44,026 nucleotides of DNA from Chloroflexota bacterium. Lineage in GTDB: Bacteria > Chloroflexota > UBA5177. Position 1 is the stretch's first letter. Each line of letters begins with the position of its first letter. The notes under the pieces were generated by a model. It saw only the letters and a program-made list of their open reading frames with translations, was not told the origin of the DNA and searched no databases. Of this stretch, positions 1,672 through 43,895 are shown piece after piece. The stretch lies in the NCBI GenBank assembly GCA_003244175.1, contig QHBP01000410.1:1-44026 (forward strand), written 5' to 3'. Both the position numbers and the translations under genes were made by a program.

Positions 1672-1734
1672 ATGCAGACCGTTTCTGATGACAAGACGCC
1701 CACCGAGCTCTCGGACCTGAAGGGGAGAGCATAG
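1672..1734 (+). CDS. 20-codon leader ORF upstream of the DUF4386-like gene
   Basis: A short ATG frame preceded by AAGGGAGAG encodes MQTVSDDKTPTELSDLKGRA and ends in TAG. The downstream gene begins within or directly after the stop (TAGTGATGG: GTG at 1734, ATG at 1737), an arrangement suited to translational coupling. The peptide has no recognised family. It may be the surviving N-terminus of a deleted gene rather than a designed leader. Confidence 0.35.
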   Translation: MQTVSDDKTPTELSDLKGRA

Positions 1735-1736
1735 TG

Positions 1737-2448
1737 ATGGAGACGCGCCACTTTGGCATCTGGGAGCGATACGCCTGGGTGGCGGGCATCCTGTTTGTCA
1801 TCGCGCTGGTCGCCGAGGTCGTGGTCGCGATCGGCATCCCAGCGAGCCAGGTGGATTCGGCGGCGAAGATCGCACAGGCGCTCCACACCCACCAACACCG
1901 GCTGGGGGCAATCGCGTCCCTGTCTGTTGTCTATGCCCCCATGTTTCTCATCTACCTGAGCGGGCTCTACACGCTGCTGCATATGGACACTGCCCGGGCC
2001 AGAGCCCTTGGCTCGTTGGTGCTGCTTGGCGGAACGCTGCTCGTGACCCTGCATGCCGTCAGCGACATTGGTATCACCGGCTTGGTCGGAGCAAAGCTCG
2101 TGGGGGCGTTCGGGCCTCATCACGATCCGAGCGTGGTCTACACGCTGTATCTGCTGACCTTTGCTCTGGACAGCGTGGGGGACATCTTCGGCCAGTCTCT
2201 TTGCTGTTGCCACGGGCCTGCTCGTGATCGGGAGCGGGGTCCTGCCGCGCTGGCTCGACTGGATGGCGATGCTCGCCGGCATCCTGTTGTTCCTTCAGGG
2301 CTTTTCCCTCGGCGGCGTTATCGCCACGTTCGGGGTGCTCGTCGATAGCATTGGGTTCGTACTCCTCCTGGTCTTCGTCCTGGTCAGCAGCGTCATGATG
2401 CTGATACGCGGGAATGGCGTCTCCGCCCCGCCAGTTGACAGTCCTTGA
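1737..2448 (+). pseudogene. DUF4386-like multi-pass membrane protein, frameshifted
   Basis: The first frame (from ATG 1737, or GTG 1734) encodes a hydrophobic protein starting METRHFGIWERYAWVAGILF with about four membrane segments, up to SVGDIF near 2189. The next frame then continues seamlessly with ASLFAVATGLLVIGSGVLPR and two or three more membrane segments, ending at 2448. The break is explained by one extra G in TTCGGCC at 2190-2191. The combined product would be about 236 residues and resembles DUF4386 membrane proteins of unknown function. Either the gene is recently dead or the base is a sequencing error; the good conservation on both sides means the event is young or artefactual. Confidence 0.65.
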
Positions 2449-2639
2449 GCCGTGTAGAGACAGGTGGAGGGGGTACGGGTTACGTTCTCGAGGAATGTGA
2501 CACGAGTCATCCCGCATGCCGGATGGAGGGAGACGAGCCGCTGGGTGGCCACCGGCCTCATGCCGGGCTGCCCCGGCATCGAGGCGGCAATCGCACCTGG
2601 AGTGGTCTCGTCGGCTGTGCGCATCACCGAAATCAAGTG

Positions 2640-3018
2640 TCGGGCCTTGATGCTCCCACTTCTGGGTCGGTGACGGTCAACGGGTGCCCATACGGCCAGC
2701 ACCGCCGACCCCTGCGCGAGGTCGGCGCTCTACTCGACACCAAAGCCATCCACGGCGGGCGGAGCGCCTATAACCATCTGCTCTGTCTGGCCCAGGCGAG
2801 CGGGCTTCCCCGCCGCCGGGTCGACGAGGTCCTGGAACGGGTCGGCATGAGCAGCGTGGCCCGCAAGCGGGCCGGGGGTTTTTCCCTCGGGACGGGCCGG
2901 CGGCTCGGGATCGCCGGTCACCGAGCAGGGCAGCGGCGGTGCTGCTATTCGACGAGCCGGTCAACGGTCTCGACCCTGAAGGCATCGTGTGGATAAAATT
3001 GATGCGGTCTGGAAACAC
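2640..3018 (+). pseudogene. ABC transporter ATP-binding protein, degraded
   Basis: One frame reads GLDAPTSGSVTVNG then REVGALLDTKAIHGGRSAYN and a signature-like region AGGFSLGTGRRLGIAG, typical of bacitracin/antibiotic-export-type ATPases. After about 2925 the frame changes and the Walker B/D-loop part LLFDEPVNGLDPEGIVW appears in another frame. The Walker A segment and everything upstream of GLD is missing. The remnant stops at 3018, exactly where the inverted-repeat element begins. So it lost its 5' end, took a frameshift, and was truncated at the 3' end. Confidence 0.75.
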
Positions 3019-43009: not shown

Positions 43010-43402
43010 TCACTGCCGGACGACAAACCCTCGCTCGCCAGCAGCCGCGGCGAGGCGGTCATCAAAGGTGGCGACCGCGCCCTGCGCCTGTTCGGCTGCG
43101 AGCAGCACGCAACAGTCGGGTAGCTTTAGACCGGTCCTGGCGCGCAACACCGCCAGTCGGATGGGCGCGCCCTCGCCCAGGCCTACGCCGGTCACTCGGA
43201 GCTGATGCAGTGCCGCGATGGCCTTATCGAAGCGACCGGCGCGAGCCGGACCGACCAGCACCTCGGCGAGGGACAGTGGGCTCGCCGCCAAAGGCTCCTC
43301 GGCGGCGCTGAGCAGCAAAGCGCGGGCACGGTCGTGATGAGCATCCGCTCCGTCCAGGTGGGCGATGAGCACACACGCATCGAGGACGATCGCGCCGGCC
43401 AG
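43010..43402 (-). CDS. PIN-domain VapC toxin with damaged start
   Basis: A PIN-domain ribonuclease of about 127 residues. The N-terminal IVLDACVLIAHLDG carries the first catalytic Asp, and SLAEVLVGPA, KLPDCCVLLAAE and ATFDDRLA supply the others. The only conventional start in frame (GTG 43372) lies after that Asp and would remove it. The codon at 43393, where GTG is expected, is GCG; further upstream only CTG 43402 remains. So the family-length protein needs an unusual start. It overlaps the antitoxin frame by about 200 bp for the reason given there. Confidence 0.65.
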   Translation of the reverse strand: MAGAIVLDACVLIAHLDGADAHHDRARALLLSAAEEPLAASPLSLAEVLVGPARAGRFDKAIAALHQLRVTGVGLGEGAPIRLAVLRARTGLKLPDCCVLLAAEQAQGAVATFDDRLAAAAGERGFVVRQ

Positions 43403-43635
43403 TCTTCACGCAGCTCGGCCAGGTAGTTCTGACCGTACACCCCGGTGAGCTCCCCGCTCGTACGAGCAATCGCCTCCCGCCGGGCGGCCACTCCGCGTTC
43501 CTGCTGCCCGAGAACTGCTCGGTGCCCCTCTTCGAGTAGCCGCAACAGAAGCTTGTTGCGATTACCGCTCTCTGCTGGCCAACGCTTGGCGGCATCATCG
43601 AGTGCGCGCGAAACCTGCTCGGTTTCAGTGATCAT
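43192..43635 (-). CDS. VapB-like antitoxin, read-through version
   Basis: The first 81 residues (MITETEQVSRALDDAAKRWP through NYLAELREDWPA) are a normal-length VapB-type antitoxin, helical with the usual acidic/aromatic tail. Codon 82 is CGA where a TGA is expected; the frame then runs 66 more residues, antisense in character to the PIN domain frame. The extension is therefore a product of a lost stop. No ribosome site precedes ATG 43635; a 45-bp palindrome does. Confidence 0.65.
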   Translation of the reverse strand: MITETEQVSRALDDAAKRWPAESGNRNKLLLRLLEEGHRAVLGQQERGVAARREAIARTSGELTGVYGQNYLAELREDWPARSSSMRVCSSPTWTERMLITTVPALCCSAPPRSLWRRAHCPSPRCWSVRLAPVASIRPSRHCISSE

Positions 43636-43638
43636 GTG

Positions 43639-43683
43639 ACGTGGACGGGTTAGTGGGCATCATGCCCACTAACCCGTCCACGT
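43639..43683. promoter_or_regulatory. 45-bp near-perfect palindrome ahead of the antitoxin
   Basis: Arms of 22 bp (43639-43660 and 43662-43683) match without a mismatch around a single base at 43661; each arm contains GGACGGGTTAGTGGGCAT or its inverse. It ends three bases before the antitoxin ATG. It could be an autoregulatory operator, a cruciform, or an RNA stem next to the start codon. A reverse-strand TATATC lies upstream near 43690. Confidence 0.6.
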
Positions 43684-43895
43684 GATATATCGGTGTTACA
43701 CTTCACCGTCCTTTGCCTGTAGGCCCGAGCATCTCGGCTCAACGTAGACGACCAGCGGGCCGGCTCGCCTCCTGATCGGTAAGGCCCCCGCGATGTATGT
43801 GGTCTCCGGCACGGCTCGGCTCAGATTCCGTGGGGACCGGTCCTCGACATCCGTTTTAATTTAGGTACGGCAGGACCAGTGCGGAAAGTGCCACG
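43684..43895. other. Intergenic stretch between the antitoxin and tRNA-Ala
   Basis: About 210 bp with no ORF or RNA family that I recognise. It holds small palindromes (CGGTG...CACCG at 43691-43708; GGACCGGTCC near 43836) and a T/A-rich run near 43853. In particular there is no 23S rRNA 5' end. Confidence 0.5.

Follow-up and report, generated by a model that had tools for sequence, protein, structure and literature searches.

A toxin-antitoxin gene pair lies near one end of the window analysed here, a stretch of 44,026 nt, and the site where its two genes should meet has lost both the end of the first gene and the beginning of the second. Is this a dead module, a module working by other means, or an error in the assembled sequence? 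We read it, with a probability of about 0.6, as a recently inactivated chromosomal toxin-antitoxin module of the VapBC type (with a PIN toxin), probably silent and carrying three lesions.

The stop/start junction

The minus-strand junction is GGCGCGATC. What was a 4-nt stop/start overlap (43390..43393, minus strand) reads GCGA here as against NTGA in relatives; GCG occupies 43393-43391 and CGA 43392-43390, leaving neither a toxin start nor an antitoxin stop. The antitoxin-frame ORF (43635-43192, minus strand) is 147 aa long; a hypothetical TGA at 43392-43390 would end it after 81 aa, counted from ATG 43635, and with a hypothetical NTG at 43393 the toxin would be 127 aa long, in a frame that is open down to a stop codon at 43012-43010 (minus strand). 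The junction coordinates and residue counts (81, 127 and 66) of the initial annotation, made from this sequence by itself, are correct on recount. Ahead of the invariant Asp, the toxin frame contains no ATG, GTG or TTG. Near the toxin N-terminus the sole remaining standard start is the next downstream GTG (43370..43372, minus strand), which lies past that Asp; by the alignment and the predicted secondary structure, starting there would lose strand 1 along with it.

A genome-wide search yielded 63 relatives, most of which align up to or across the junction. The count at the junction rests on the 57 with an alignable junction, plus two (L128 and L129) found later in the same phylum as the window; L127 repeats L005. 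All 57 have an antitoxin stop TGA and a toxin start NTG at exactly this site, the start being GTG in 48, ATG in six and TTG in three, and the two members of the window's own phylum agree, with an NTG start fused to the antitoxin TGA. The window is the sole exception, unique against 59 relatives. These are not all independent (L004/L006 and L022/L026, for example, are close), yet they are spread over many genera. In three annotated plasmid pairs the genes overlap by exactly 4 nt, and the one that was read out has GTGATC. In three relatives (L018, L019 and L055) an in-frame TGA immediately precedes the GTG, which must therefore be the true start there. With NTG plus TGA in all relatives and GCGA in the window only, the GTGA ancestor that had been proposed from the window sequence is well supported, and so is the proposal that a one-base difference accounts for the joint loss of toxin start and antitoxin stop. 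The opposite pattern, in which relatives all carry C at the position of base 43392 below a conserved CTG start, did not appear: no relative has C, and the upstream CTG occurs in 41 of 57. The genus comprises one species and the family five, and the best match within the family is at 53%. A search for viral copies found none.

One of the late additions, L129 (G390:C201), is peculiar in its own right: it keeps the GTGA junction, has a TGCGCT-like -10 sequence, and its otherwise invariant ATFD motif reads ATLN. It seems to be decaying via another route.

The read-through extension of the antitoxin over the toxin gene (43192..43392, minus strand; 66 codons plus stop) is a chance open frame. In relatives this frame runs for anything from 0 to 127 codons before a stop, with 7 as the commonest value, and this arbitrary length led us to reject both a conserved antitoxin-toxin fusion and a selected extension. 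A gene caller would report a hypothetical protein of 147 aa at the locus and overlook both genes.

The toxin gene

The VapC-type PIN toxin coding region (43013..43393, minus strand; 127 codons, stop codon at 43012-43010) has an intact body and lacks a standard start before the invariant Asp. It matches PF01850 (E 5.9e-14; 53.2 bits, cut-off 23.6) and falls below the cut-offs of the curated VapC models NF047959 (22.9 bits, cut-off 80) and TIGR00028 (16.7 bits, cut-off 73.6); the toxin is thus related to these VapC subfamilies and lies outside them. Searching PDB sequences with phmmer returned mainly spurious repeat-protein matches, so fold comparison was used instead. An AlphaFold2 model of the toxin has a pLDDT of 96, and its best matches among solved structures include K. 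pneumoniae VapC (7by2), M. tuberculosis VapBC (5x3t) and VapC20 (5wzf), with TM-scores by query length of 0.75-0.78 at only 20-23% identity, from which the target RNA cannot be inferred.

The acidic quartet (D5, E44, D93 and D111, numbered from the lost start) is invariant in 57 relatives and kept in the window. Of the 47 columns conserved at 80% or more, 46 are kept in the window and the start codon is the one exception; the view that the toxin is otherwise intact, catalytic Asp included, is borne out. A relative-rate test with four outgroups gave 5-8 changes unique to the window and 7-11 unique to L005, and by this comparison the window's toxin branch is not accelerated. dN/dS to L005 is about 0.23/1.41, or ~0.17, with dS near saturation. 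With no change at some 70 nonsynonymous sites, the time of neutral evolution is at most roughly 0.04 substitutions per site. Had constraint ended long ago, conserved codons should differ, and none do, which leaves three possibilities: a very recent lesion, a lesion that is not real, or a gene still in use.

If the lesion is not real, the consensus or the assembly is wrong: the organism itself would lack the C at 43392, and perhaps also an extra A in the antitoxin (described below), and its toxin gene would be normal. An error would suit a MAG-like, fragmentary assembly (82% complete, 5.65% contamination, 440 contigs), a C unique against the 59 relatives, and a toxin body without any sign of relaxation. 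Against it, secA, pyruvate phosphate dikinase and other large genes in the window read as long uninterrupted frames, and overlaps of this kind are intact elsewhere in the genome: the NTGA overlap is unbroken in 13 more PIN toxin genes of the assembly, or 14 with the neighbouring module. Two further lesions within the same module also weigh against an error, which we consider unlikely.

Alternative start codons

That the gene is still in use would imply a low-output module, in which the toxin is made from CTG 43402 or another non-standard codon and the antitoxin from ATG 43635 with a 66-residue tail. The upstream CTG (43400..43402, minus strand) lies in the toxin frame, adds the residues LAG and is a possible weak fallback start; the frame from it is open, its product is predicted to fold well, and the gene body is under constraint. 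Two other PIN toxins of the genome also have CTG as their only near start, each within a CTGA overlap. However, CTG 43402 has no coupling stop codon and hence no terminating ribosome to couple to, and CUG initiates at 0.86% of the AUG level as compared with 58.4% for GUG (PMC11497404). The codon is moreover a by-product of the antitoxin Asp-Trp codons (GAC TGG), and three relatives have an in-frame stop between the CTG position and the GTG; CTG 43402 was on these grounds rejected as the family's real start. We regard a low-output module as improbable, somewhat more so than an error in the assembly.

The two CTG-only toxins are of separate interest. In one (L105, G000:C161), CTG is the only possible start. 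The other belongs to a second PIN toxin-antitoxin pair of the window (L117; 42294-42955, plus strand), with a Phd-type antitoxin (PF02604), arranged tail to tail with the first pair at a distance of 54 nt; its only nearby toxin start is CTG 42557, and its nearest relative, L069, has GTGA. It was considered as another broken start and set aside, since L105 likewise has only CTG, and this neighbouring module may thus be functional. Judging from these two loci, the lineage may use CTG starts for such PIN toxins.

The antitoxin start

The ancestral portion of the antitoxin frame that follows ATG 43635 (43393..43635, minus strand) has 81 codons, which had been taken as a normal length. This does not hold: antitoxins of relatives mostly have 84-90 aa and begin MPT.RPRH, and on this alignment ATG 43635 is an internal Met, a secondary start that costs eight conserved residues. 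The ancestral N-terminus, MPTTRPRH in relatives, corresponds to 43636..43660 (minus strand), where one extra A at about 43650-43651 shifts the frame. The window still encodes the residues TRPRH; ATG CCC ACT is thrown out of frame, and with it Met1 and Thr3, which are present in 55 of 55 relatives.

No Pfam or NCBIfam family scored above cut-off for the antitoxins of the window or its relatives. The antitoxin family (MPT.RPRH..TET...; L004-L067 and L141-L143) is widespread, mostly in Actinomycetota-type genomes, with a conserved operator. Its start codon lies 5-7 nt past TACACT, giving a leaderless-looking mRNA.

The promoter and operator

Upstream of the antitoxin, relatives have a conserved GTGTnnCAC half-site separated by ~10 nt from GTGnTACACT, with the start codon a few bases later. 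Of 53 relatives, 48 have the -10 sequence TACACT and 41 the first half-site. In the window the first half-site survives (GTGTAACACC, 43692..43701, minus strand, identified by comparison with relatives) and TACACT is missing. Where relatives have the second half-site and the -10 box, it has a perfect inverted repeat (43639..43683) with 22-bp arms at 43639-43660 and 43662-43683 around a 1-nt centre. The upstream arm matches the first antitoxin codons in reverse complement, and past the palindrome the sequence resumes with the operator half-site in the expected order. The conserved half-sites and TACACT of the relatives are what an autoregulated promoter would show; in the window the second half-site and the -10 have been replaced. 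A scan of 43550-43880 found no sigma-70-like promoter, from which consensus the host's promoters may differ.

A sequencing or assembly fault finds further difficulty here, in that such a palindrome is hard to create by base-calling and the half-site continues in its proper place beyond. For a low-output module as well, the -10 is gone, and the palindrome would form a strong RNA hairpin (-51.9 kcal/mol, z -7.4) that ends 4 nt before ATG 43635. Two other roles for the palindrome were considered. A terminator was rejected, a terminator scan having found none, and a repeated or mobile element was rejected on its single occurrence, as no other copy with 0-2 mismatches was found in the whole genome.

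The palindrome most likely arose by replication template switching. In E. coli it is established that template switching at quasi-palindromes yields perfect inverted repeats (PMC7202029), and the window shows the corresponding pattern: the repeat is more perfect than that of relatives, in which the longest arm in 53 sequences is 3-7 bp, and its sequence is copied from the opposite arm. Several relatives, e.g. L007, have GGGCATGCCC around the start codon, which could have provided a natural seed for the switch. The E. coli reporters resemble our case in that imperfect inverted repeats are perfected by reverse copying of nearby sequence; they differ in that the window concerns the promoter of a toxin-antitoxin operon and is approached from comparison only. 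The locus would be a plausible natural case of a template-switch mutation erasing a toxin-antitoxin promoter.

Order of events

Under the reading that we prefer, inactivation by three lesions, the ancestor would have been a normal operon. A palindromic operator would have covered its TACACT -10, with the start codon a few bases further on and an antitoxin beginning MPTTRPRH, and its GTGA overlap would have coupled toxin translation to antitoxin termination. With the T of GTGA now C, ribosomes would neither terminate nor restart at the toxin, and would read 66 codons out of the toxin frame. The extra base would shift the antitoxin's normal start out of frame, and an inverted copy of the opening antitoxin codons would have taken the place of the second operator half and -10 box. 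The operon should then be transcribed weakly or not at all and yield practically no active toxin; we infer this loss of expression from the damage to the sequence. Counting against this reading, three lesions without other decay in either gene body imply a tight time window. The fragmentary state of the assembly also weighs against it, as does the seeming use of CTG as a toxin start at two other loci of the genome, by which a little toxin could be made.

As to order, the extra A is found in both palindrome arms, so the frameshift probably occurred before the palindrome or along with it. Loss of the antitoxin start would be harmful with an active toxin, so the junction change may have come first, an argument that would not hold if the shorter antitoxin can still neutralise. 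On these grounds an early junction change is plausible. We give very little credence to the further idea that, by coming first, it produced a 'dimmed' module, with tailed antitoxin and traces of CTG-derived toxin, held in an off state reversible by one base with the toxin coding sequence intact.

The initial annotation had seen in the junction a single-step disarming of the toxin. That one base removes both signals from a clear ancestor stands, and the extra base in both arms is compatible with an early junction change. The promoter-operator region and the antitoxin 5' end are damaged too, however, and either of these other lesions could silence the module. Nor is a special step needed: any change of the T in GTGA and two of the three G changes remove both signals, and since 5 of 12 single changes do so in any NTGA overlap, losing the two together is inherent in the arrangement and nothing out of the ordinary. 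The 4-nt overlap that balances toxin and antitoxin is a single point of failure too. No evidence was found that the change was selected, and the transition alone, acting as one adaptive step, seems to us quite improbable as the cause, if a little less so than the reversible off state. The locus is a tidy case of the death of a toxin-antitoxin module, a clean snapshot of a pair dying, and not a new mechanism.

Relation to known systems and genome context

The module resembles type II VapBC systems in its antitoxin-toxin order, its PIN toxin with four acidic residues, the ancestral 4-nt overlap, and the operator palindrome over the promoter of relatives. It differs in that its promoter and antitoxin start are broken and its antitoxin family is represented by no model in Pfam or NCBIfam; as to coupling with an upstream antitoxin, that gene is present, and the overlap is destroyed in the window and intact in all relatives. 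On M. avium plasmid p1-JPH1, the pair JPH1_RS26585/RS26590 has a homologous antitoxin and VapC, the operator, the MPTTRPRH start and a GTGATC junction; unlike the window's pair it is plasmid-borne, with junction and promoter intact. A precedent for loss by a single nucleotide change is M. tuberculosis VapBC25, judged non-functional from such a change in the antitoxin (PMC4680722); that change makes a premature stop in the antitoxin, whereas in the window a stop and the toxin start were lost together.

The genome (G000) is rich in toxin-antitoxin genes for a 3.7-Mb assembly: it has 29 PIN-domain matches, many of them where an antitoxin and a toxin gene overlap. Positions 1734-2996 (plus strand), at the contig's opposite end, hold frameshifted-looking remnants, including a sub-threshold match to an ABC-transporter ATPase (19.9 bits, cut-off 25).
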